Source of the DNA: Thermoplasmata archaeon | GTDB taxonomy: Archaea; Thermoplasmatota; Thermoplasmata; Thermoplasmatales; Thermoplasmataceae | Length of the DNA stretch: 61,350 bases | Reading direction: 5' to 3' | Assembly (NCBI GenBank): GCA_021803655.1 | Contig: JAJZLK010000076.1 | Location: forward strand, 1-61,350 | Shown here: one piece after another, positions 980 through 32,915 of the stretch | How positions within the stretch are numbered: the stretch's first letter is position 1 | Layout: every line of letters begins with the position of its first letter | The notes under the pieces: generated by a model | What the model was told of the DNA's origin: nothing | The model's input: the letters and a program-made list of their open reading frames with translations, nothing else | The model's database searches: none | Translations under genes and position numbers: made by a program

Positions 980-1621
980 ATGACAGACGAAAATAAGAAG
1001 AAAGGTGACCCGACTGCACTAGGCATATTTGCGTATGGATTCAGCCTTTTTGCGTTATCCATATATGCAATTGGATTCTTCAGTTTCTCAACTGAAAGCA
1101 TAGTGATGATCGCACCCGCGCTGTTTTTTGGAGGAGTATTCCTTCTCATCGCATCGACATGGGAGTACAACAACGGAAACACATTCGGAGCCACAGCCTT
1201 CGGGACATATTCCGGGTTTTTCCTCGTGTTTGCGTTTGCACACATCGGGATTAAGCTTGGATGGTTTGCTCCCCTGATAGTAGCACACATGGTCGGGATA
1301 ATGGCACTCGCATTTATCGTGATGACATTTATCTACTGGGTTGGCAGTCTAAAGATGAACCTGGCCTTGAACCTGACGCTGTTCTTCCTCCTGATAGTCT
1401 TCATACTGTACGCCATTCCGCTTCTCTCCCTGACGCCAAGCAGCACAACCGCCATGGGAGCGTTCCCCGCTCCAGCACTGGCGCCTGCCGGATGGGTGGG
1501 GATAATAGACTCACTCTTCACAATGTGGGTTGGTGCAGCAGCAATAATTAACGACAGGTGGGAAGTGGCCGGGAGCCGCGGTCCGATTCCGGTGTTTCCG
1601 CTGGGAAAGAAGAAGAAGTAG
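980..1621 (+). CDS. GPR1/FUN34/YaaH (SatP) family acetate/succinate transporter
   Basis: A 213-residue integral membrane protein with about six hydrophobic helices. After a charged N-terminus it has GDPTALGIFAYG, a variant of the NPAPLGL signature of the YaaH/SatP family, and later the family-like stretch FGATAFGTYSGFF. The family moves acetate, succinate or protons with organic acids; in an acidophile it could export or import acetate. The C-terminus ends in a basic KKKK tail. It stands alone, converging on the siroheme synthesis genes, with a hairpin between them. Substrate is inferred from family only; the AmiS/UreI fold is a weaker alternative. Confidence 0.72.
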   Translation: MTDENKKKGDPTALGIFAYGFSLFALSIYAIGFFSFSTESIVMIAPALFFGGVFLLIASTWEYNNGNTFGATAFGTYSGFFLVFAFAHIGIKLGWFAPLIVAHMVGIMALAFIVMTFIYWVGSLKMNLALNLTLFFLLIVFILYAIPLLSLTPSSTTAMGAFPAPALAPAGWVGIIDSLFTMWVGAAAIINDRWEVAGSRGPIPVFPLGKKKK

Positions 1622-1712: not shown

Positions 1713-2381
1713 TCAGAAAAATTCAACGTCGTCAGTAAGCCGCTTGCGCTTTTCCAGGAACGATCTGGCCTTCTCAAGACTGAAATTGAAAGCCTCATCC
1801 GGACTCTTTCTATTTATAAGATCCCAGAATTCCTTATCAGACAGAAGGGTCCTGAAGAACTCTGCCCGCAATTTCACATTCGGGATCTCCACCTTGCTTC
1901 TGACTCTCTCTATTACCGGGAGTGCTTTCGTGTATCTCCCCGCCTCCTTCTGCAATATGTCTCTCAGGAATCTTGCAAAGGAAGGTGATCGTCCCTGAGT
2001 GGAAACGGCGATCAGGACACCGTCAGACTCTGATACTGCAGGAAATATGAATGCGCTTTCATTGTTGTCCACCCTGTTGTACAGAATATCCTTCTCTCTG
2101 CATATCTTCTCCAGCCCCTCGTTGAGCCTGACGTCGTCGGTTGCGATTATGACTATGCTGCGGTCATCCAGGTATTTCTCAACCTCGTCCGGACTTTTCA
2201 GCCTCGCGGTCACCGTTTCCACGCCAAGACGGGAGAACTCCCTGGAAAACTCTGAAGCAACAACCAGGATTCTTTCAGAATGGGCTATCAGGTTCCTGGT
2301 CTTCTTTGCGGCTGCCTCTCCGCCCCCGATTATCAGGATCTTCCTGTCGCTGACATTAAGCATTACCGGTACGTAGCTCAA
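1713..2381 (-). CDS. Precorrin-2 dehydrogenase / sirohydrochlorin ferrochelatase (Met8/CysG-N type)
   Basis: A 222-residue Rossmann protein that oxidises precorrin-2 to sirohydrochlorin with NAD+, and in bifunctional members inserts iron to make siroheme. Residues 1-20 read MSYVPVMLNVSDRKILIIGG, the family start with the GGGEAA nucleotide loop at about 20-25. The conserved middle VDNNESAFIFPA corresponds to the catalytic-Asp region, and STQGRSPSFARFLRD is the family signature near 150. It overlaps the upstream methyltransferase by 4 bases and is the last gene of the dsr operon, so it is best read as the siroheme supply for DsrAB. Whether it also chelates iron cannot be told from sequence alone. 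Confidence 0.87.
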   Translation of the reverse strand: MSYVPVMLNVSDRKILIIGGGEAAAKKTRNLIAHSERILVVASEFSREFSRLGVETVTARLKSPDEVEKYLDDRSIVIIATDDVRLNEGLEKICREKDILYNRVDNNESAFIFPAVSESDGVLIAVSTQGRSPSFARFLRDILQKEAGRYTKALPVIERVRSKVEIPNVKLRAEFFRTLLSDKEFWDLINRKSPDEAFNFSLEKARSFLEKRKRLTDDVEFF

Positions 2382-3139
2382 GGGAATCGCTCCTGTCCCT
2401 CCGATCCGGGCACTGTCACCAGGGTTGCCAGACTGACCACTTTCCCAACTACGATTATTCCCGGAGAGACTACGGAGTTTCTTTCTGCAATGTCAGCGAT
2501 GTCTGATATCCTGCCGATAAAGACCTTCTGATTCTGCATGGTGCCGTTCTGGACAATTGCTGCCGGAAGCACCGGACTCATTCCCGCAGCCATGAGCTTG
2601 CTCATGATCTCCCTCACCTCTGCTATGCCCATCATGATCACGATCGTCCCGTCGAAATTCGCCACTGTCTTCCAGTCATTCTCCTCCTGTCTCTTCCTGT
2701 GGCCGGAGATTATGAGGATGGATGACGATATGTCCCGGTGGGTGAGCGGTATGCCTGCGAAAGTTGTCACCCCAAGGGCGGAACTCACGCCAGGAACAAT
2801 CTCGAACCTGATATCGTGATCTGCAAGGAAACCTATCTCTTCCCCCCCTCTTCCGAAGACAAAGGGATCGCCGCATTTGAGTCTCACGACGGTGAGTCCC
2901 CTGGATGCATCGTCCAGCATGAGCTGGTTTATGCCGTCCTGCTTCATCGCAGAATCCTCTCCGTGATCTGTGCCAACGCACACGGCCTTTGTGCTCTCGG
3001 GTATCAGAGAGATGATCTCCCTGCTCACGAGGCGATCGTATAGCACGGTATCGGCGGATTTCAGAAGATTCAGGGCCCTGATCGTGATCAGATCGGGATT
3101 CCCGGGTCCGGCTCCAACAAGGTAAACTTTTCCTCTCAT
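2378..3139 (-). CDS. cobA: Uroporphyrinogen-III C-methyltransferase (SUMT)
   Basis: S-adenosylmethionine-dependent enzyme that methylates uroporphyrinogen III twice to precorrin-2, the first step toward siroheme. The protein opens MRGKVYLVGAGPGNPDLIT, the typical SUMT N-terminus, so I use the ATG at 3139; a longer frame reaching 3250 would add 37 residues unlike the family and overlap the flavoprotein gene upstream. Other signatures are VVRLKCGDPFVFGRGGEE near 85-100 and GVTTFAGIPLTHR near 130. Length about 253 residues is normal for SUMT. It is translationally coupled with the precorrin-2 dehydrogenase by a 4-base overlap. Siroheme is the prosthetic group of DsrAB encoded in the same operon. 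Confidence 0.92.
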   Translation of the reverse strand: MRGKVYLVGAGPGNPDLITIRALNLLKSADTVLYDRLVSREIISLIPESTKAVCVGTDHGEDSAMKQDGINQLMLDDASRGLTVVRLKCGDPFVFGRGGEEIGFLADHDIRFEIVPGVSSALGVTTFAGIPLTHRDISSSILIISGHRKRQEENDWKTVANFDGTIVIMMGIAEVREIMSKLMAAGMSPVLPAAIVQNGTMQNQKVFIGRISDIADIAERNSVVSPGIIVVGKVVSLATLVTVPGSEGQERFP

Positions 3140-3221
3140 ATCGGCCCCCAACATCCATCCCGCAGGAGCACGTTGCACTTCCCGGCGGGTACCATACCTG
3201 AACAGTTCAGAATCATCAGGA

Positions 3222-4340
3222 TCATACGAGTCCCCTGACCATGCTTGCAAAATACGTGTCAGTTGAAGTCCACTTCAGGAGGTGATCAAGTTTCGAGGTG
3301 AACAGCGCTCTTGGAGGACTCTGGTGGGTGTAATAAAGGGTGACCGCCTTCTCCATTCCCGCTTCAACAAAACATAGTATTGTGCCGTCATAACCCTCCG
3401 GCAGTGGAGACCCGCTCAACTCTGAAGCCAGCCTGCTGGACAGGTAATCGGCCTCGAAGTGTGCAACGGAACCTGCCTTTGTAATCGGAAGGTTCGTCGC
3501 ATCCCCTATCACAAAAACGTCGTCATGGCCTTTGTAATTCAGCATCTTCCTGTCAACGTCAACGTATCCATACTCGTCAGCGAGACCAGAATCAGTCAGG
3601 AACTTCTGTCCCCTGTGTGGTGGCAGCATGATGAGGAGGTCGTAATCCTGTGTTTCCCCCTCGTAGGAAATCACCTTGTGTGATTCGGCATCAATTCTCT
3701 CAACGTTGAAATACGTATGATTGGTTATTCCTCTCTCTTCAAAGACGCCGGAGAACAGTCTGGATACAACAGGAATCGAAAAAGTGCCGTCTATGGGGTA
3801 CAGGTAGTGCATCTCCACCTTGTCCCTCATGCCCATGGATCTGAAATACTGGTCAAGAAGGAGGGATATCTCCAGGGGAGCTGGAGGACATTGTATGGGT
3901 TCTGAGGCCCTTCCGATTACAATTTTCCCGCCCCTGAATCCTGAAATGTGTTTCCTGAGCTCCAGGGCGTGTTCAAGATCGTAGAAATGTTTTGCCTCAG
4001 ATTCGTAGCCTGGAACGTCTTCCGGAGTATACCTGTCGCCGGTTGCAATTATGAGGTAATCATAACCCAGTGTTCTTCCTCCCCTGGTCAGGACCTTCCT
4101 CTCCTCTATATCGACAGAAGTTACCTCGTCAACAAGATACGTGATTCCACGGTTAATGAGGAACCTGTTTGGCTTGACGCTGTTGCGGTAGTCCTTGAAA
4201 CCGAATGGAATATGTATGCCATCCGGCTTGAAGTAATGGTTTGGACTCTTCCCGATAACAGTTACCTCAAGCCTGTCGGCAGGTATCTTGAGCCTTGACT
4301 TGTTAGCTATCATTATCCCTGCCGCTCCGTCCCCGATCAC
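3222..4340 (-). CDS. Sulfide:quinone oxidoreductase-like FAD flavoprotein
   Basis: A pyridine-nucleotide-disulfide oxidoreductase fold: FAD-binding GDGAAG at the N-terminus, YDYLIIATGDR near 95-103, and VFVIGDATNLPITKAGSVAH near 276-295, the SQR-type FAD site. Cys151 (in IQCPPAPLE) and Cys323 (in ILCFVEAG) sit roughly where SQRs carry the redox cysteine pair. SQRs pass electrons from sulfide to the quinone pool; here it could oxidise sulfide or process DsrC-linked sulfur. Odd point: the only usual in-frame start is a GTG placed so late that the first beta strand (RKQLLVIGDG) is cut; a CTG lies one codon upstream and a stop 11 codons upstream. The real start is uncertain, or there is a sequence error. 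It lies 35 bases after dsrK in the operon. Confidence 0.72.
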   Translation of the reverse strand: MIGDGAAGIMIANKSRLKIPADRLEVTVIGKSPNHYFKPDGIHIPFGFKDYRNSVKPNRFLINRGITYLVDEVTSVDIEERKVLTRGGRTLGYDYLIIATGDRYTPEDVPGYESEAKHFYDLEHALELRKHISGFRGGKIVIGRASEPIQCPPAPLEISLLLDQYFRSMGMRDKVEMHYLYPIDGTFSIPVVSRLFSGVFEERGITNHTYFNVERIDAESHKVISYEGETQDYDLLIMLPPHRGQKFLTDSGLADEYGYVDVDRKMLNYKGHDDVFVIGDATNLPITKAGSVAHFEADYLSSRLASELSGSPLPEGYDGTILCFVEAGMEKAVTLYYTHQSPPRALFTSKLDHLLKWTSTDTYFASMVRGLV

Positions 4341-4375
4341 CAGAAGCTGTTTTCTATCTCCCGTCTCAAATCACC

Positions 4376-5761
4376 TCATATTTCAATAGCGTATCCCACC
4401 AGATCCATGAGCCCATGGTTTTGCAGTTCCACCTTGTGGTAGCCGATCACATGCGGGAACTGGGCCTTGTCTATGGCACATGGAGAAACCATATGATGCG
4501 CACCGGTTTTCCATGCATAGTATACTGCAGGCCAGCCTGCCCACGCCCTGTACTCATTCCAGTCTTTTTCATCGGCAAGGAGTCCCCCGCCTGCCCCGCA
4601 GCACAAAGTCTCCTGCTTTGTGTATTCGGCCTCCACAGTTTCCCTGACAACTGCCTTCAGCACGTTTCTCGGTTCGTTGATCAGGTTTCCTCCCCTGGCA
4701 TAGTTGCAGGGATCGTGATAGTTATACAGGTCATCGTTCCTGTTCCTGTCCACCTTTATGATTCCACGCTCGATCCCCTTCTCTGTCATCTGATGCACAT
4801 GGGTGAGTTCGATCCCTTTCTTTGCAAGCTCATACCTGACGTAGTTGTTTGCGGTCCTCCACCCATGTCCGCACTCTCCCCACACGACAGTTTTCACGCC
4901 CTTCCTTACGGCTTCGCCCACCACCCTGTCGCCAAAGTCCCTCAGGTGTTTCTCGCTCGCAAAGATTCCAAAGTTTGCAGCTTCTGTTGTGAATGTAGAC
5001 ATAGTCCAGTCCTTCTTCATGACATGCATGACCTTTGTGTATCCCTTCAGCGTGTCCGTATTGACGAACAGGTCCGCTGAGGACGGGATAAACAGGAGAT
5101 CGGCCTTTTCCCTGTCCAGGGGGAGATCAATCTGCTTCCCCGTTTCTTCGTTCAACTCTTCCTTGATGAAATTCACTACCGACCCGACAGATTTCGCATT
5201 CAGGCCCATGTTATTTCCGGTCCTGTACACCTGGGCCATTGTTGCAGCAACGTATTCCGGGATCTCTCCCATTTCCGTGAGAATGTTTCTCACGTTTCTC
5301 GTGATCTCGGACTGGTCAATGCCCTGCGGACAGAATACCGAGCACCTTCTGCACTCTGTGCACTGATAGTAATATGTGTAAAGTTTCCTGATATCTACAG
5401 CAGCCGGTTTCAGCCTCTTCCCCTTCCTGTAAAGCTTCCTGACCAGTTCTGCCCTTCCGACAGGAGAGTTGTTCACGTCTCCAGTAGAGATGAACATGTG
5501 GCACTTGTCAATGCATATCCCGCAGTGAGTGCAGCTCTCCATGAAACCGACAAAAGCCCTGCTTTTCTTTAACTGCTGAAGGCCATCAACGAAGTGTCCT
5601 GTGTCCCGGACAGGTTCCACGCCGATATCGCTCAGCTGCTTCTCCTTCGCGGGTCTCTCGGAAACCGACTTTGCCCATTCAATGTCCTTCTGCCTTGAAA
5701 GCCAATCTTCAGCCTTCCCGCTGGGACTCTCCATGATAATGTCCCTGATCTTTGGCTTCAT
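4376..5761 (-). CDS. dsrK: DsrK-like heterodisulfide reductase-type iron-sulfur protein
   Basis: A 461-residue cytoplasmic subunit related to HdrD/HdrB. Two ferredoxin-type [4Fe-4S] motifs are visible: Cys77-80-83-87 and Cys134-137-140-144. They are followed by a CCG-type catalytic region with ECGHGWR (Cys297), DPCNYARGG (Cys352), the paired LCCGAGGGL (Cys387-388) and Cys428. The EC(G)HxWR and PCNxARGG blocks are characteristic of DsrK. In sulfur metabolism DsrMK exchanges electrons between membrane quinones and the DsrC trisulfide or disulfide. The gene overlaps dsrM by 4 bases. Distinguishing DsrK from generic HdrD relies on the operon and these blocks; both agree. Confidence 0.87.
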   Translation of the reverse strand: MKPKIRDIIMESPSGKAEDWLSRQKDIEWAKSVSERPAKEKQLSDIGVEPVRDTGHFVDGLQQLKKSRAFVGFMESCTHCGICIDKCHMFISTGDVNNSPVGRAELVRKLYRKGKRLKPAAVDIRKLYTYYYQCTECRRCSVFCPQGIDQSEITRNVRNILTEMGEIPEYVAATMAQVYRTGNNMGLNAKSVGSVVNFIKEELNEETGKQIDLPLDREKADLLFIPSSADLFVNTDTLKGYTKVMHVMKKDWTMSTFTTEAANFGIFASEKHLRDFGDRVVGEAVRKGVKTVVWGECGHGWRTANNYVRYELAKKGIELTHVHQMTEKGIERGIIKVDRNRNDDLYNYHDPCNYARGGNLINEPRNVLKAVVRETVEAEYTKQETLCCGAGGGLLADEKDWNEYRAWAGWPAVYYAWKTGAHHMVSPCAIDKAQFPHVIGYHKVELQNHGLMDLVGYAIEI

Positions 5762-6513
5762 TTGATCTCCCCCGGGGTGTAAACTGAGTTAAGAGTGGGG
5801 TTCGTGAAAAAGGAATAGGGATGCATGAACTTGCTCACAGGGAGAGGGAAATAGAGGAACAGCGTCATGGTGAGGATTACATGCAGCGTGAAGAGGGGAG
5901 AAGAAGGAAGGTTTATGGGAGAAAAGCTGGAAAGTGAGAGAATGAAGGGACTTGCCTGGGCATAGGCAAAATCAGGGGGAAGCATGATCCTCATGGCCAG
6001 TCCTGAAAACCCGATTGCCACTATGATGAGTATTGCAAAAAAGTCTGCCATGTTGCTGATCTTCATGAGATATCTGTCCGTGATCCTGCGAAGGAGAAGA
6101 ATAACGCCTGAGACCAGAAGAAGCACATTGAACGTGGTTCCGACGTAGGCTCCAATCATCTCCATGGTGCTTTCAGGAATCCCTGATGACACCATGTAAG
6201 GGAACAGGACAATGTCTGCGTGGGCAAGGATTATTATCCACAGGCTCCAGTGGAATACGAGGGATGTTGCCCTGACGTATGGATTCCTCTTCATGCTTGT
6301 GAAGAGGAATATCCTCCCGAGAATGTTTACAAACGCTTTCCATCGCGTGTCCTGCCCCGGATAGGTGAAGAGGTTCGGGAACCCGAGATAAGTTCCAGTT
6401 GGCCCCTTTCTTATGAAAAGCCATCTCGCCAGGACGTATATCGTCCCGAAGATGAAAACAGAGATTGCCAGGTATACGTAACCGATTACCAGGATCGACA
6501 GCAAATTCAGCAT
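5758..6513 (-). CDS. dsrM: DsrM-like membrane cytochrome b subunit
   Basis: A 251-residue protein with about six hydrophobic helices, related to the NarI-type cytochrome b fold. His88 in VFHWSLW and His98 in LAHAD lie in one helix region, with further His in FTLHVILT and FMHPYSFF near the C-terminus, giving candidate axial ligands for b hemes. The order dsrM then dsrK, with a 4-base overlap, matches DsrMK complexes in which DsrM takes or gives electrons at the menaquinone pool. DsrJOP subunits are not seen, so this is the minimal two-subunit form. It lies 39 bases after dsrB. Confidence 0.8.
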   Translation of the reverse strand: MLNLLSILVIGYVYLAISVFIFGTIYVLARWLFIRKGPTGTYLGFPNLFTYPGQDTRWKAFVNILGRIFLFTSMKRNPYVRATSLVFHWSLWIIILAHADIVLFPYMVSSGIPESTMEMIGAYVGTTFNVLLLVSGVILLLRRITDRYLMKISNMADFFAILIIVAIGFSGLAMRIMLPPDFAYAQASPFILSLSSFSPINLPSSPLFTLHVILTMTLFLYFPLPVSKFMHPYSFFTNPTLNSVYTPGEIK

Positions 6514-6552
6514 GCCTGAATCACCACACAGCAGGGGGTGAGTGAGGGGGCG

Positions 6553-7623
6553 TTACCTCCCACTTCCATCCCTGAGAGTTGCTATCCCTCTTACGTCCAG
6601 GTACTCCATGCTCTGCTCGAAAAATGGAAAACCCGTTCTCTCGAAGAACTTCTCCCATCCTATCCTGTCAATCCAGTCAGCGATCCTTTCACCTTTCTTC
6701 GCATCTTCCTTCCAGGTATCCACGATTCTCTTCACAGCACCGACCGTCCTGTCATAATGCGGGGGTTCGTTTGGAAGGAATGGAATGACGATTCTCCCAA
6801 GCATGGTCCCATATCTTGACGCCGAAGCCCTTCCGCCTATGGCTATCGAATGGCCATCAGTCTTCTCCGGAGATTCGAATATGATGCCGCCGCAGGCGCC
6901 TACACAGAGACCGCATCCGATACAGAGGTTCTGTCTTATCTCCAGCGTCCTCTCCCCTTCGGGCGTCGGCTTGAGCTGGATGGCCCCCACAGGGCACGTA
7001 AATGCGGTTCCCTGCAGGTCGCATTTCTTCACGTCAGGAGTGACGACCGGTACTTCGGTGTGAATCCCGTTCACTGAGATGTCTGCAAGAAAACTCCCGC
7101 CACAGGAACTCGGGCATCCGGAAACACTGACGGTGAGCTTTGCAGGAAGTTCCTGCCAATTGAAGTATTCAACAAGTTCATTGCCGAGCTTCTGCGCCAC
7201 GGAAGGAGAATCGGTAGCTGAAAGCGCGCAGTGGAAGTATCCGGCACAGCTTGTCACACTCCAAAGATGGTTCCCCCATCCGCCAACCGGGAAGCCAAGC
7301 AATTCAAGCTCCTTCTTCAGATCTTCAGTCTGATCCAGCTCAGAGGTGATGAATTCCATGTTCAGGGCCTGGGTGAATCTCATGGTTGCCCCGGCATATT
7401 TTCTCGCAAGCTGTGATATCTTCCTGATAGTATCCGTGCTGTATCTGGCGTTCGGCGTGGCTGCTGCTCTCAGCGAATAAACCCTCTTGCCCGTAGTGCT
7501 GGTGTGCTCTACTATTCCGGGTTCGAGGATCCTGTGCGATACCCATGTTCCAACGGTTCCCTTGAGGAATTCCGGGATAAAGTCCGCGTATGGTCTTGGA
7601 GGTCCCTCAATCATCTCATTCAC
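6553..7623 (-). CDS. dsrB: Dissimilatory sulfite reductase beta subunit
   Basis: A 356-residue subunit of DsrAB, the siroheme enzyme that interconverts sulfite and DsrC-bound sulfur. The N-terminus (YADFIPEFLKGTVGTW) and C-terminus (RIGWEKFFERTGFPF) match the DsrB pattern. The cluster/siroheme cysteines appear as Cys126-x5-Cys132 (TSCAGYFHC) and Cys170-x3-Cys174 (SGCPSSC). An inserted ferredoxin domain has Cys234-237-240-244 preceded by FTCPVGAI. The conserved tail of the ferredoxin part reads VIPFLPNEPPHYD. Position 126 is Cys where the classic DsrB motif HTQGWxHC has Thr. It overlaps dsrA by 8 bases, giving coupled translation of the two subunits. Confidence 0.9.
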   Translation of the reverse strand: MNEMIEGPPRPYADFIPEFLKGTVGTWVSHRILEPGIVEHTSTTGKRVYSLRAAATPNARYSTDTIRKISQLARKYAGATMRFTQALNMEFITSELDQTEDLKKELELLGFPVGGWGNHLWSVTSCAGYFHCALSATDSPSVAQKLGNELVEYFNWQELPAKLTVSVSGCPSSCGGSFLADISVNGIHTEVPVVTPDVKKCDLQGTAFTCPVGAIQLKPTPEGERTLEIRQNLCIGCGLCVGACGGIIFESPEKTDGHSIAIGGRASASRYGTMLGRIVIPFLPNEPPHYDRTVGAVKRIVDTWKEDAKKGERIADWIDRIGWEKFFERTGFPFFEQSMEYLDVRGIATLRDGSGR

Positions 7624-8800
7624 CCCTCACTATCTTGCCGATTTCCTCAGGTATTCTCTGCCGGTCATCCTCGTTGACGGCATAGAACAGGTTTGTCCTG
7701 AGGTCCTTGACGTTCAGTGCTGCCGGTTTCATCTTCATGAGATCCAGGAATCCCTTCATGCCAATCCTGAAGATGAGGTCACCCAGTCTCTCCTTTCTGG
7801 CTGCGTGGTCTGTGAAAACCTCGACGATTCGATCCATAAGATCCATGGCATCCCCGATACTGTCAACCCGGGCGAGAAGCTTTGACGAGAGCGGTCCCTT
7901 CTTTCCGCGGAGCTTTCCCCCGACGTAGATCAGGAACTGTTTCCTCTTTCCGGGGGTTATCGCCCCGTTCCCCTTCCTGAGGCAGATCATGCATTGGGTG
8001 CAATCCTTGCTGCTGATGGAAACAGATCCATCGCTGGCACGAATGGCGCCGGTTGGACAGGACCTGATGATGTCTTCTACGGACTCCGCTGGAAGTTCCT
8101 TTATCTTCTCCTTATCCACAAGAGGCGCGTCTTTCCACGATCCAACGATTCCAATATCCGCTTTCTGCGTCGCTCTTGCACAATCAAGCGGACAGCCTGA
8201 TATTTTCAGCTTCACCTTGTGCGGGAATGTCGGATATTTTGCGTAATCGTTGTATCGATCGTAAAACTTGTCCCTGACATCCAGCGTGTCTGTATTGGCA
8301 TATTCACAGAGAACCTGCCCAATGCATGCGGTCGCGTTCCTGAACGCATCGCCTGTAGATCCGATCTCCATCCCTGCATCCTTGAACGCAGAGACGAATT
8401 CACGGATTCTGTCCTTCGGAATCCCCGGTATCTCCACGTTGTGTCCTGTGGTTATGGCGTGCAGCATGCCTACGCCGTACTTATCAGCGAAGTCAGCCAG
8501 TGTGTCAAGCATGTCACTGGTCACGAAATTCCCCGACGGAAGGAGAACCCTGACGACGTTGGCACTCTCTCCAATATCAGGCCTGCTGGTAACGCGCATC
8601 AGAATGCCTGTAGGAGCACCGGGAACTGAGACGTATCCCCCAGTGGTCCACAAATCCCTCTTAAGATAGAGTGAAGCGCCGTAAAGATCGATGGGATACC
8701 TGGTGTGATCCGCCTCTCTCAGGAAGTTCGGCCAGGGGCCCTTTCTCACTTCACTTAGAATCTCCCTTCCTTTTCTCACCTCCTCAGGGGGCTCACTCAA
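7616..8800 (-). CDS. dsrA: Dissimilatory sulfite reductase alpha subunit
   Basis: A 394-residue partner of DsrB. The start region KGPWPNFLREA and WTTGGYVSVPG follows the DsrA pattern. Siroheme/[4Fe-4S] ligands are Cys159-x5-Cys165 (TACIGQVLCEYA) and Cys203-x3-Cys207 (SGCPLDCARA). The inserted ferredoxin domain has Cys248, then Cys267-270-273; the 19-residue gap followed by CxxCxxC is the arrangement known in DsrA. The protein overlaps the small knuckle protein by 4 bases upstream and dsrB by 8 downstream. DsrC and DsrMK in the same operon make the dissimilatory reading much safer than an assimilatory sulfite reductase. Cytoplasmic, expected as an alpha2beta2 complex. Confidence 0.92.
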   Translation of the reverse strand: MSEPPEEVRKGREILSEVRKGPWPNFLREADHTRYPIDLYGASLYLKRDLWTTGGYVSVPGAPTGILMRVTSRPDIGESANVVRVLLPSGNFVTSDMLDTLADFADKYGVGMLHAITTGHNVEIPGIPKDRIREFVSAFKDAGMEIGSTGDAFRNATACIGQVLCEYANTDTLDVRDKFYDRYNDYAKYPTFPHKVKLKISGCPLDCARATQKADIGIVGSWKDAPLVDKEKIKELPAESVEDIIRSCPTGAIRASDGSVSISSKDCTQCMICLRKGNGAITPGKRKQFLIYVGGKLRGKKGPLSSKLLARVDSIGDAMDLMDRIVEVFTDHAARKERLGDLIFRIGMKGFLDLMKMKPAALNVKDLRTNLFYAVNEDDRQRIPEEIGKIVRGE

Positions 8801-9108
8801 TTTGCACCGCCTCCAAAATGATCTAGCGCATACTTTGAACCGACAGCGTAACCGTTCTTCCTGCAGAATTCAATGAATTTCTGCTTCAGTCCGCCAGCCA
8901 CTTCAACCCTTATTACGGGAATATTGTCTTCCTCAGCGTCAACCCGTTCGCATTTTCCGATGGTGTTGATGCAGTTGGGGCAGACCTGGTCTCTGGTCAT
9001 CAGGTACTTCATCCGTTTTGATCTGGCAGGGCCGGTACTCTCCTCCTCGGTGAAAATATCTATGGAATAGCCGCAGACAGGGCAGACCATGTATATCATT
9101 TCAAACAC
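8797..9108 (-). CDS. Small two-knuckle (CPVCG / CPNC) protein of unknown function
   Basis: A 103-residue protein I do not recognise. It has CPVCG at residues 9-13 and CPNC at 43-46, a pair of knuckles that could hold zinc or an iron-sulfur centre, then an acidic stretch and a C-terminal part with LKQKFIEFCRKNGYAVG. It is not DsrD, which is a winged helix without such cysteines. It is locked between dsrC (8-base overlap) and dsrA (4-base overlap), so it is almost surely made together with them and may be a DsrC/DsrAB partner, assembly factor or regulator. ATG codons at 9099 and 9090 are alternative starts. Confidence 0.8.
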   Translation of the reverse strand: MFEMIYMVCPVCGYSIDIFTEEESTGPARSKRMKYLMTRDQVCPNCINTIGKCERVDAEEDNIPVIRVEVAGGLKQKFIEFCRKNGYAVGSKYALDHFGGGAN

Positions 9109-9457
9109 ATCCTGTAGGTTTCGGCGCTCCGGCCAGCCTGCAGGCCCCCTTGGCAGGTCCGGTAGGGAAGAGCTGATATATCCTCTTCAGTTCGTATCCA
9201 GTTTCCTTCACCACCATCCTGATGGGAGGGCAGCTTTCGTATGTTGCGTAGTATCCCCTCAGGTAGTTTATGATCTTCCAGTGATCTTCTGTGAGAGCGG
9301 ATATGCCCTCGTCCCCTGCAACCGCTTCCACGAACTCCGGGCACCAGTCACCCGGGTTCATGAGGAAACCGTCCTCGTCCATTTCAATCCTCTTCTCCAC
9401 ACCATTTCCTGTTTTCACGGAAATGAAGCTAGCATTATCCTCAGAAGACATCCACAT
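9101..9457 (-). CDS. dsrC: DsrC sulfur-carrier protein
   Basis: A 118-residue member of the DsrC/TusE family. The core LTEDHWKIINYLRGYY and the C-terminal arm LFPTGPAKGACRLAG then PKPTGCV are diagnostic. Both redox cysteines are present: Cys117 (penultimate, CysA) and Cys106 eleven residues earlier (CysB). TusE and RspA-type homologues lack one or both, so this is a true DsrC able to form the trisulfide with DsrAB and be reduced or oxidised by DsrMK. First gene of the operon. A TATA-like box about 27 bases upstream supports the ATG at 9457; an ATG at 9451 has better spacing from a GAGGT motif and is an alternative. Confidence 0.93.
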   Translation of the reverse strand: MWMSSEDNASFISVKTGNGVEKRIEMDEDGFLMNPGDWCPEFVEAVAGDEGISALTEDHWKIINYLRGYYATYESCPPIRMVVKETGYELKRIYQLFPTGPAKGACRLAGAPKPTGCV

Positions 9458-9493: not shown

Positions 9494-9620
9494 CCGGATG
9501 CCGAATCTATCAGGCTCTTTTTCCCGCAGCGGCGGACGAATCGATGTTACATTTCAACCTTGATCTGGAATCTCCCGGGAAATTGCCCGGAAAAATATGT
9601 CAAACATTAGGGAAAAGGGT

Positions 9621-9629
9621 TTTATATGG
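9621..9629 (+). promoter_or_regulatory. TATA box of the divergent regulator
   Basis: AAAAGGG followed by TTTATATGG begins 24 bases before the ATG at 9645, fitting a leaderless archaeal transcript. It argues against the in-frame ATG at 9597, which would lie upstream of this box. Confidence 0.45.
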
Positions 9630-9644
9630 CAGGCTTATAATAAC

Positions 9645-10259
9645 ATGATATCGTTGAAGTGTCAAGTGGAGGCACTTCTTGACGTGAAGAGAAGTGACTG
9701 TCTTGTCGTTAACGCATTCGCAGACCAATGCAATACCATAGAGCATCTTTCACTCGGAGAGGACAGGACAATACACAGGATAACCCCGCTACACGGAAAC
9801 GAGGCCACGTTTCCAAGGCTGCATGTGGAAGACGTGAGGCTCAAGAGGATTAACGACGGCACCACATGGGTTGAGGCAAACAGTTGTGCCGCCTGCGCTT
9901 TCTTCTCCAGGCTCCCCTTTGCCAACATAGTCGGTATTTCCATATCCGGACGTAAATCCGTCCAGTTCAGGATTCTCGCGCCTTCAAGGTCAGACTTCAG
10001 CTTGATGAAGTCTCGAATGAGGGACGAACAGATAGAATTCAACGTATTGAGCGTAACCACCGGAGGCCGCAAGGAGCTTACCTGCAGGCAGAGAGCAATA
10101 ATGCAGACAGCCATCCAACTGAGGTATTTTGAAAACAGGAACAGAATTTCTCTTACCGATCTGGCAGAAGTTATTGGGGTTTCTCCCTCAACACTGTCAG
10201 AGATAATCAGAAGGAGTGTAAAAAAGACGATCTCCTATTATTTTGATCACAGGCCCTGA
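9645..10259 (+). CDS. HTH_10 (bacterio-opsin activator-like) regulator with Cys-containing sensor
   Basis: A 204-residue regulator. The C-terminal 55 residues match the HTH_10 domain: LTCRQRAIMQTAIQLRYF, then LTDLAEVIGVSPSTLSEIIRRS as the helix-turn-helix. The N-terminal 140 residues form a divergent sensor region with Cys6, Cys19, Cys29 and a CAAC pair near residue 80. It is transcribed divergently from dsrC with under 190 bases between the start codons, so control of the dsr operon is a natural inference. The cysteines might sense sulfur species or redox state or bind a cluster; nothing in the sequence proves this. The start was chosen from the TATA box spacing. Confidence 0.75.
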   Translation: MISLKCQVEALLDVKRSDCLVVNAFADQCNTIEHLSLGEDRTIHRITPLHGNEATFPRLHVEDVRLKRINDGTTWVEANSCAACAFFSRLPFANIVGISISGRKSVQFRILAPSRSDFSLMKSRMRDEQIEFNVLSVTTGGRKELTCRQRAIMQTAIQLRYFENRNRISLTDLAEVIGVSPSTLSEIIRRSVKKTISYYFDHRP

Positions 10260-30278: not shown

Positions 30279-31980
30279 GAGACTGTGTGAAAATTATTGG
30301 AAAAATCTCCGCAGAATAATAGATTGCAAGTGTAATGCTTGAACAACCTGAAAATATTGGTTATTTTTCAGATTATTGTCCTGAAGTTTCAATTTTCCCG
30401 TTATTCATGCTGGGATATATTGAAAGAGTGTCATATTTCCTGTATTCTTTAGCCTGATTGCCTCATTCTCCTCTGATTTTATATTGATCACCCTCTTCAT
30501 GTTGTACGCAAGGGCCATCAGTCCGAATTCCCCTTTCACCTTCCTCTTTCCCTTCAGCAGCGTATAGCCTGCATTCATTGCCCGTTTCATGGTTCCGAAC
30601 GGATGCTCCACCATGGACTTCCGCTTCTTCATCTTCTCATGGCCAGCGAGTTTCATCCTCTTCCTGTGTTCATCCACGATGTCCTGGTGTATCCATCTTG
30701 AGATCTGTCTCCCGCTCTTCGACGAGGTGCATTTCGATCGTACAGGACAGGATGAGCACGATCTGGTTGCATATATCCGGAACACCTGTTTCTTTGCGTT
30801 TGTCCGGTTGCCGGTGTTATGCATGACGTTTCCCTGCGGACAGGTGTATGTACTGTTCCCAGGATTGAAGGTGAATTTCGACTCGTGGAATTCAGGGGCC
30901 GGTATTCCACTTTTTCCGTCCGGCACTCCATGTTTCTGTTCCGGAATGAAGGCGCTGATCTTTCTGTCATTAAGGTCCTTCACATTTTCCAGTGAAAAAT
31001 ATCCCTTGTCGGAGAGGGATTCCAGATCTTCGGAGTGAAGGATTTCCTTTGATCTCTCAGACATGGGTACGAGGGAAGCAAAATCCGTGGGATCATCGGT
31101 AAGATCATAATCCACGATCAGGTGATTCTTGTCATCCACTGAAATCTGTCCGTTGTAGCAGATATCGATGCCATGACGGGTCTTCATCTGCCTGGATTCA
31201 GGATCGGTGAGCTCAATCTCCTCGAGGTTGTTTTCCTTCATGGTTTTCCGGATCTCCCTGAGTTTCTTCGTTTTCTTCTTCATTGCCTCGATCTTTTCCT
31301 TCATGTTGGTTATCTTCGGCTCATCCTTCTCTTTCTCATCGTTCTCGTCCATCTCCCTGAGATATTTTTCAATCTTTTCATCCGTTTCGGCGATCTGCTT
31401 TTCCACTGTTTCTTTCCTGTAGCTCCGTTCCCTTGTGTTCCATGCCTTGATCTTCGTTCCGTCTATTGCCACGGTCTTTCCACCAAACAGTCCATCACTG
31501 ATACACTGTTCGTTGAAAGACCTGAACACCCCTTTGATGCAGTCAATGTTGTCCCTGCGGAAATCAGAAATTGTCTTGAAGTCCGGCCCGATTTTGCAGA
31601 GAAGCCACATGACCTCCATGTTGCGATGGCTTTCCTTCTCCAGTTTCCGGGAAGAGCGGATGCCGTTGAAATATCCCCAGAGATAGAGTTTCAGAAGATC
31701 ATGCGGGTCGTATGATGGTCTTCCCGCACCATCTTCCAGGACTGCATACCTGAAACCCAGCTTGTGAAGATCAAGACTGTTCACAAAGGCATCCATGAAT
31801 CTGGCTGGATTATCCCCTTCTATGTAGTTTTCAATCATGTCAGGAAGCAGCAGGAGCTGTCTTCTGCCTGTTCCTGAAACGTATGATCCGCTCATTACAT
31901 AGTATAATACAGCTTCATGAATAAACCTGTCGCTTCTGGAGACCGTGAAACACAGGGTCTAATAATTTTCACACAGTCTC
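30279..31980 (-). mobile_element. IS1182-type insertion sequence
   Basis: A 1702-bp element bounded by perfect 20-base inverted repeats, GAGACTGTGTGAAAATTATT at the left and its complement at the right. ATAT is duplicated at 30275-30278 and 31981-31984. It carries one transposase gene on the minus strand and has intact ends and an intact gene, so it may still move. Confidence 0.85.
30405..31895 (-). CDS. IS1182-family transposase
   Basis: A 496-residue full-length DDE transposase. The N-terminal DUF772-like region contains GRPSYDPHDLLKLYLWGYFN near 58-77; TVAIDGTKIKAWNTRERSY near 141 holds the first Asp; a long Lys/Glu coiled coil spans about 165-220; KGYFSLENVKDL near 305 follows SDKG; a four-cysteine CSSCPVRSKC patch lies near 390; and MVEHPFGTMKRAMNAGYTLL near 440 carries the catalytic Glu. 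All blocks are present with no frameshift. Confidence 0.9.
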   Translation of the reverse strand: MSGSYVSGTGRRQLLLLPDMIENYIEGDNPARFMDAFVNSLDLHKLGFRYAVLEDGAGRPSYDPHDLLKLYLWGYFNGIRSSRKLEKESHRNMEVMWLLCKIGPDFKTISDFRRDNIDCIKGVFRSFNEQCISDGLFGGKTVAIDGTKIKAWNTRERSYRKETVEKQIAETDEKIEKYLREMDENDEKEKDEPKITNMKEKIEAMKKKTKKLREIRKTMKENNLEEIELTDPESRQMKTRHGIDICYNGQISVDDKNHLIVDYDLTDDPTDFASLVPMSERSKEILHSEDLESLSDKGYFSLENVKDLNDRKISAFIPEQKHGVPDGKSGIPAPEFHESKFTFNPGNSTYTCPQGNVMHNTGNRTNAKKQVFRIYATRSCSSCPVRSKCTSSKSGRQISRWIHQDIVDEHRKRMKLAGHEKMKKRKSMVEHPFGTMKRAMNAGYTLLKGKRKVKGEFGLMALAYNMKRVINIKSEENEAIRLKNTGNMTLFQYIPA

Positions 31981-32915
31981 ATATATCTGCAAGTCCTGCC
32001 GCTATTCGTTCGTTGCGAGGCCTCCGAACTACGGTTATGGAAAGCACCATCCCGATGATATCCTGGATAAGAGCGTCAAGGCAAGGGTTAAGACCTCGCT
32101 CAGGAAGGCTGCCCATATGTTCAGGATCATAGGAAGCGTGAACATATCGCATGAGACCATCAGACGGAATGTCCCCGATATACAGGTGAAACGCATGCCA
32201 TGCTCAGGGTATTTCGTCTATGATGAGCAGTATGTGGGCATTGATGGAGAGGATAAGTTCAGGGCACTGCTGAAGGACGTGAAGAAGGGCAATTTCACGG
32301 AGGAGTTGCTTGACGATCTGAAGGAGAATACGCTCATCTCGTTCTTTGTCAGCGCTCTCCGCAGATTCATCATTCATGGGACGGTAACCATAACCACCGA
32401 CGGGTATCATTACGAATATGCACTGAAGGAGGCGGGAAGGATTCTTGGCATCCGGATAATGAGGCAGAGATGCCTCTTCCACATTGAGAAGGATCTTTCG
32501 CACAAGATCAAACTGGCAAAGAAGGAGGATGAACTTGACGGTGCAAAGAGGCTCGTCAAGTTCATGTTCTTCCAGACGCCCGGGAATCTCAGGAAGATCA
32601 AGAATCATGAGGCGTTGTCAGGGAAGATTGAAGGAAAGAGTGAACCGGAGATTGTCGAATATATCCTTGATCTGCTGAACGGCCTCTATGCAGACGATTC
32701 GATCATACAGAGTTTCCTGGACTTTGTGAAGAGGAACAGGAAGGAGGTCTTCCTTTATCTCAAGGACGGTGAGGTGGAGAAGACCTCAAACATCGCGGAA
32801 CAGCACTTCTCCATAATGTCATGGTTATTCAAGAAGAGATTCAAGACAAAGGAAGGACTGCTCAGGACTTCGTACTGGTATCATCACTACCTGTCAACCG
32901 GAATGTGACAATGTC

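Follow-up and report, generated by a model that had tools for sequence, protein, structure and literature searches.

Genes for the dissimilatory sulfite reductase DsrAB have been reported from several Thermoplasmatota, including the Yellowstone lineage YNP-TEG/MV2-Eury (PMC7174415) and the pit-lake Thermoplasmatales metagenome-assembled genome (MAG) EUR_06 (PMC9326234; see also PMC10591310), and clades 1 and 5 of the 'reductive archaeal' enzymes (RA-DsrAB) belong to this phylum, Thermoplasmataceae included (PMC12948486). DsrABCMK is recognised as the minimal archaeal module (PMC10504309). Here we describe a dsr operon on a 61,350-nucleotide contig (JAJZLK010000076.1; referred to at its full length as the window) from assembly GCA_021803655.1, a Thermoplasmataceae archaeon. 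The operon is, as judged from its sequence, an intact minimal module of DsrAB, DsrC and DsrMK, accompanied by its own siroheme supply, a small protein termed X103 and a two-cysteine sulfide:quinone reductase (SQR). Its net direction is best read, at roughly even chances, as oxidation of sulfide or sulfur, with a slight lean over sulfite reduction, which is placed somewhat below even, and little weight for anything else; it is the direction, not the gene identities, that lowers the confidence in this reading.

Among the described systems, A_EUR_06, YP2.bin70, DS3.bin83 and TL1-4.bin52 carry the same operon with DsrB 71-75% identical to that of the window, but, where the contig reaches, have a DsrE-like gene and a different cobA (40-43% identity) instead of the SQR and cobA; EUR_06 (G016) has aprBA-sat and COX1, as does the host of the window. 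The MV2-Eury locus is similarly ordered (dsrC-X103-dsrA-dsrB-...-dsrM-dsrK), with a two-Cys DsrC and with DsrA and DsrB 63% and 61% identical, but differs in that a roadblock-domain gene separates dsrB from dsrM, a hydrogenase cluster adjoins the operon, the dsr-adjacent flavoprotein lacks the first SQR cysteine, and both sat/apr and COX1 are absent. Compared with the minimal archaeal DsrABCMK(N) module (PMC10504309), the window shares DsrA, B, C, M and K, lacks dsrN in the operon and adds SQR, the siroheme genes and X103. A sequence-only reading of the window had implied that dsr in Thermoplasmata was new, which the earlier reports (PMC7174415, PMC9326234, PMC12948486) anticipate; within the literature searched, what appears to be new is the SQR-bearing variant together with aprBA-sat and an oxidase, as well as X103 and its fusion to DsrA.

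The operon and its DsrAB lineage

Nine open reading frames (ORFs), all open and all on the minus strand, occupy positions 1713-9457 in the order dsrC, X103, dsrA, dsrB, dsrM, dsrK, SQR, cobA and cysG-N (Table 1), and their identities agree with those that the sequence-only reading had proposed. Its description of one overlapping run is accurate for six of the eight junctions, which from dsrC to cysG-N measure -8, -4, -8, +39, -4, +35, -29 and -4 base pairs (bp); there are five overlaps of 4-8 bp and one of 29 bp, whereas dsrB is separated from dsrM by 39 bp and dsrK from SQR by 35 bp.

The gene identities are close to certain. DsrC ends in CRLAGAPKPTGCV, a terminus that is nearly invariant in the alignment with its relatives and retains the two cysteines already noticed in the sequence-only reading. 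Among solved structures, DsrA is matched best by its A. fulgidus counterpart (3mm5, E 6e-49), DsrB is 61-75% identical to its Thermoplasmata relatives, and both subunits keep every siroheme/[4Fe-4S] and ferredoxin-domain cysteine in comparison with Archaeoglobus and bacterial DsrAB. DsrA (258 versus 393 bits) and DsrB (319 versus 342) do not reach their NCBIfam equivalog cut-offs, and neither do DsrK and DsrM; the TIGR02066 cut-off excludes most of the clade, because DsrB of most Thermoplasmata relatives also scores below it. DsrM is shorter than the bacterial DsrM model (320 positions), and in relatives dsrM likewise directly precedes dsrK. DsrJ, DsrO and DsrP are absent from the operon ORFs (no genome-wide search for DsrJOP was made), although the minimal DsrMK form does not require them.

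In a concatenated DsrAB tree the window lies inside an 11-row Thermoplasmatota clade (support 100/100), in which six rows of Thermoplasmatales or acid-mine MAGs (nearest at 72% identity) are followed by G153 and then by the Yellowstone MV2-Eury group with G039; the sister of this clade is a second, distant Thermoplasmatota clade of six rows. A DsrA tree rooted on AsrC places the window within DsrA proper, apart from AsrC and from the single-subunit sulfite reductases that other Thermoplasmatota carry, and this position rules out an assimilatory, AsrC or Fsr-type identity, for which the sequence-only reading had left room. By its place in these trees, the window DsrAB is of the 'reductive archaeal' type. 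A plasmid search for DsrAB gave AsrC-type matches only, among the matches listed. With the DsrB model at E <= 1e-20, 13 of 390 Thermoplasmatota genomes match, the matches in G220 and G352 being single-subunit enzymes outside DsrAB; dsrAB is absent from most of the host's family, including the two congeners searched (G001 and G002).

The host is an oxygen-using Thermoplasmatales archaeon, close relatives of which come from acid mine waters, sharing its family with A_EUR_06 (L006/L110 = G016) and its order with MV2-Eury (L007/L104 = G046); the habitats of these relatives suggest an acidophile. Its MAG consists of 80 contigs and is 91% complete with 2% contamination, and all absences from the genome given below are results of targeted searches in that MAG. 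Such fragmentation, together with the two dsrAB-less congeners, could hint at an operon binned or assembled from another archaeon, yet this is highly improbable. The gene order is found again in 10 other genomes or contigs, and therefore is not a product of chance, and since the same operon recurs in other genomes of the clade the contig is not the chimera that the sequence-only reading had considered. The operon recurs with both its flanks in L004/L127, L006 and L108, MAGs of which some belong to the host's family, with L003 holding the part that fits its contig, and mis-binning was rejected on this conservation; G+C content at third codon positions (GC3) is similar in the operon genes (0.57-0.65) and the remaining contig (0.53-0.62). 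Profiles, cysteine ligands and conserved gene order together bear out a genuine dsr operon in Thermoplasmata, order Thermoplasmatales.

Table 1. Genes of the dsr operon and its immediate neighbours in the window
Feature	Position	Strand	Length and supporting matches
dsrC	9101..9457	-	118 aa; PF04358 E 7.7e-35; trisulfide arm with its two C-terminal Cys
X103, small four-Cys DsrA-associated protein (zinc-ribbon/rubredoxin-type)	8797..9108	-	103 aa; between dsrC and dsrA
dsrA, dissimilatory sulfite reductase alpha	7616..8800	-	394 aa; TIGR02064 258 bits; PF01077/PF03460
dsrB, dissimilatory sulfite reductase beta	6553..7623	-	356 aa; TIGR02066 319 bits
dsrM, NarI/DsrM-type cytochrome b	5758..6513	-	251 aa; PF02665 62 bits; NF038037 62 bits (cut-off 300)
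dsrK, HdrD-like Fe-S subunit	4376..5761	-	461 aa; NF045796 330 bits (cut-off 400); Fer4_8 and CCG domains
SQR flavoprotein, type III-like	3222..4340	-	372 aa, true start uncertain; NF049943 338 bits
cobA/SUMT, uroporphyrinogen-III C-methyltransferase (siroheme synthesis)	2378..3250	-	TIGR01469 285 bits (cut-off 185)
cysG N-terminal type precorrin-2 dehydrogenase/ferrochelatase (siroheme synthesis)	1713..2381	-	TIGR01470 91 bits (cut-off 62)
Divergent HTH_10 (bacterio-opsin activator-type) regulator, candidate operon regulator	9597..10259	+	PF04967 47 bits
Convergent neighbour, GPR1/FUN34/YaaH (SatP-type acetate) transporter	980..1621	+	PF01184 92 bits

Direction of sulfur flow

The clade shares the order dsrC-X103-dsrA-dsrB-dsrM-dsrK, which the oxidase-bearing sisters continue with a DsrE-like gene, cobA and cysG-N; in the window, the slot after dsrK is occupied by SQR and a different cobA, the latter 40-43% identical to the sisters' cobA and 53% to that of G038. 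The DsrE-like gene stands in this slot, with a conserved cysteine, in L003, L004, L006, L108 and L127, and its product scores above the PF02635 threshold (24.7 versus 22.7 bits). The window SQR has both redox cysteines (PIQC and TILC) and the flavin adenine dinucleotide (FAD) fold, lies within a Thermoplasmatales SQR clade adjoining DsrE-TusA (100/99), and is 55% identical to the host's own SQR beside DsrE-TusA on contig C63; it is predicted to be a two-Cys type III-like sulfide:quinone reductase of the sulfide-oxidation type. In MV2-Eury, G049 and G039 the flavoprotein next to dsrK comes from a different clade and, where aligned, lacks the first redox cysteine, so that the SQR is not the counterpart of the dsr-adjacent flavoprotein of MV2-Eury or G039. 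The start of the SQR is anomalous: its frame (window 4300-4420, minus strand) has no ATG, GTG or TTG upstream of the GTG at 4340 and codes RKQLLVIGDGAAG before and across that GTG, with FETGDRKQLL preceding VIGDGAAG, and initiation at 4340 would truncate the FAD fold in its first strand; a non-canonical start or a one-base error in TTT is possible.

Outside the window, the host carries aprB-aprA-sat on contig C80, with aprA at 907 bits (cut-off 642) and sat, also above its cut-off, directly after it, so that 'minimal', the sequence-only reading's term for the gene set, suits the operon but not the genome. The host AprA matches A. fulgidus AprA with 740 bits and is separated in the tree from Qmo-linked AprA (100/99), and in G034 aprBA-sat lies on the dsr contig itself, approximately 9 kb from dsrC. 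A heme-copper oxidase is present (COX1, 361 bits). Neither a NiFe hydrogenase nor cytochrome bd was found in the host genome, and there is no dedicated QmoA, as the QmoA query matched only a 1194-aa HdrA-like ORF with 35% identity, of a kind also present in a dsr-less congener. Of the genes that the sequence-only reading had suggested looking for in the genome, sat and aprAB are therefore found, and qmo and NiFe hydrogenase are not; its 'no dsrEFH' holds for this operon, but there is a DsrE-like gene in the sister operons and a DsrE2-like protein with TusA and SQR on C63 of the host.

The lean towards oxidative flow follows from a host that bears an oxidase and in which no NiFe hydrogenase or Qmo was found. 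The two-Cys SQR in the operon, from a DsrE-TusA-linked clade, points the same way, because pairing an SQR that consumes sulfide with a DsrMK that consumes quinol would be futile if the flow were reductive, and further hints are the DsrE in the same slot of the sisters, TusA-DsrE2-DsrE in dsr clusters of the second Thermoplasmatota clade, the place of the host AprA apart from Qmo-linked AprA, and the different equipment of the COX1-less clade members (see below). In a sulfidogenic layer without oxygen EUR_06 did not express its dsrAB (PMC9326234), which also counts for oxidation. A precedent exists in cable bacteria, where a reductive-type DsrAB is reversed together with a type II DsrEFH (PMC13293266); as in the host, it is combined with sulfur-transfer genes and O2 respiration, although the DsrAB lineage differs, a single DsrE-like protein or SQR takes the place of type II DsrEFH, and Qmo was not found in the host. 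The host resembles the oxidative reverse Dsr (rDsr) systems of the Allochromatium type in combining DsrABCMK with sulfur-carrier/SQR genes and with Apr-Sat.

In the oxidative direction, SQR would oxidise sulfide to protein-bound sulfide or polysulfide with reduction of quinone, and the sulfane sulfur would be handed to DsrC by DsrE/TusA-type carriers. DsrAB would interconvert sulfite and DsrC-trisulfide, whilst DsrMK would connect the DsrC thiols with the quinone pool; running in reverse, DsrMK and DsrAB would yield sulfite, which AprBA-Sat would take on to sulfate with formation of ATP. Electrons would pass via quinone to O2, and in anoxic conditions the whole set may be able to run the other way.

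Several observations weigh against oxidation and, in part, for the alternative that sulfite, or thiosulfate-derived sulfite, is respired to sulfide without O2, with menaquinol feeding DsrMK and DsrC and the SQR serving detoxification or a separate aerobic mode. The window DsrAB, reductive archaeal in type, clusters with MV2-Eury, a clade member whose enrichments reduced sulfite to sulfide (PMC7174415), the characterised archaeal Dsr systems are all reductive (PMC10591310), and the module matches the minimal reductive set DsrABCMK (PMC10504309). DsrL, the DsrEFH trio and DsrJOP are missing from the operon, which departs in this from Allochromatium-type rDsr (DsrL was not searched genome-wide) and is also without the DsrE gene that its sisters keep. 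The window DsrA does not group with SUP05-type oxidative DsrA, the oxidative type being represented in the tree by phage Lau218 rdsrA only. Sat-AprAB without Qmo is neutral and no proof of oxidation, because this combination is also known in archaeal sulfite reducers (PMC10504309). Sulfur-carrier genes occur in the dsr cluster of 7/8 COX1-bearing versus 1/4 COX1-less members (Fisher p = 0.067, with lineages that are not independent), the one COX1-less case being G153, with a partial DsrE match at a contig edge, and cytochrome bd occurs in both the COX1+ and COX1- groups and was rejected as a marker of direction. Sulfite respiration is nevertheless the somewhat less probable direction, as it has to accommodate an operon-borne SQR with two Cys, the DsrE of the sisters, a heme-copper oxidase, and a genome in which neither NiFe hydrogenase nor Qmo was found.

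Full sulfate reduction by the host was not adopted as a reading: Sat and AprBA are present but no Qmo was found, and sulfate reduction proper would therefore miss the usual electron entry to AprAB. The COX1-less clade members are equipped differently, G046, G049 and G153 with hydrogenases and G039, also of the order Thermoplasmatales, with qmoA-aprAB-sat adjoining dsrC-X103-ABMK (L103); the G039 AprA falls among bacterial AprA linked to Qmo and not with that of the host, and G039 is likely a sulfate reducer. A mainly assimilatory role of DsrAB would account for these two being the only PF01077 (NIR_SIR) proteins found in the host genome, which also encodes an assimilatory phosphoadenylylsulfate/adenylylsulfate (PAPS/APS) reductase and a second sat on contig C13 (L160:8812-10657). 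It is improbable in view of the dissimilatory hallmarks, namely DsrC with both cysteines, DsrMK and the tight operon, and the congeners G001 and G002 have sat without dsrAB (PF01077 itself was not searched there).

The wider proposal, that oxidase-bearing Thermoplasmatales reversed a 'reductive archaeal' Dsr, with SQR or DsrE recruited into the operon, for the oxidation of sulfide or sulfur to sulfate, and with X103 as the redox partner of DsrAB, is speculative and, taken as a whole, rather unlikely.

X103 and further sulfur and neighbouring genes

X103 has no Pfam match above cut-off. Its alignment shows two invariant Cys-x2-Cys (CPxC) knuckles and a KRxxYL helix, and the gene is located between dsrC and dsrA throughout the clade. 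Within the 390 Thermoplasmatota genomes, X103 is found in six, all of them dsr+ members of the window's clade (6/6), and in 0/384 others, and is missing even from the dsr+ genomes of the second Thermoplasmatota clade. An X103-like domain is fused in-frame to the N-terminus of basal-type DsrA in Chloroflexota (L011:1801-3210, one ORF of 469 aa) and Planctomycetota (L016 from ~1044 and L025 from ~97). On the grounds of this strict co-occurrence with the dsr clade and the fusion to DsrA, X103 is assigned as a DsrA-associated subunit.

X103 may be a rubredoxin-like redox domain or a structural zinc domain; profile matches are weak, and fold matches to bL33 and MCM zinc ribbons are not significant (E of at least 0.28). 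Two structure models are of uneven confidence (best predicted local distance difference test scores, pLDDT, of 80 and 77, others 55-68) and gave no significant fold match, so X103 is not a proven rubredoxin. Part of an MqsA-type antitoxin was rejected as an identity, with TIGR03830 at 21 bits versus a cut-off of 62 and a strictly dsr-linked distribution. No description of X103 was found in the literature searched, although one may exist. A different possible electron partner of DsrAB is a GltD/NfnB-type NAD(P)H flavoprotein in G022 (L005:4303-5757, minus strand), encoded approximately 2.4 kb upstream of dsrC and adjoining a TauE-like gene; it has no named DsrL match.

Other sulfur gene clusters were observed in the host and its relatives. 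On host contig C63 (L161:6853-11389), DsrE2-like, TusA, SQR, DUF1641 and HdrDE-like fusion genes form a likely sulfide-oxidation unit, and DsrE-TusA-SQR is also present in G034 and G016. In the second Thermoplasmatota dsr clade (L106, L109, L111, L129-L131), genes for TusA, DsrE2, DsrE and a DsrN-like amidase lie beside dsrABMK in several members, and COX1 is present where tested. One contig (G383:C12, with L131, L173 and L174) combines dsr, two aprBA, sat, TusA, DsrE2, a second TusA and SQR in a dense sulfur-metabolism island. In A_EUR_06 one sat copy is disrupted by internal stops (G016:C10:12643-13781).

Of the operon's neighbours, a divergent HTH_10 homologue is found upstream of dsrC in L003, L004, L006, L108 and L127, and the SatP-type transporter, at the equivalent place in L004, L006, L108 and L127, is a conserved flank, probably outside the pathway. 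Mid-contig, the window carries a DDE transposase and a second transposase-like ORF, the latter judged by eye (30405-31895 and 32117-32908).

What either direction would mean

X103 is a small, expressible candidate for a protein that exchanges electrons with DsrAB of the oldest lineages or assists its assembly and, if it were the redox partner of DsrAB, would offer a possible answer to the identity of the electron donor where DsrL is missing. Were the operon plainly reductive, it would be one more example of the published kind. If the oxidative proposal is true, it would be the first archaeal case of sulfur oxidation by Dsr: archaeal-type dsrAB would no longer mark sulfite reduction in acid-mine environments, and these archaea may generate rather than consume acidity in such settings.

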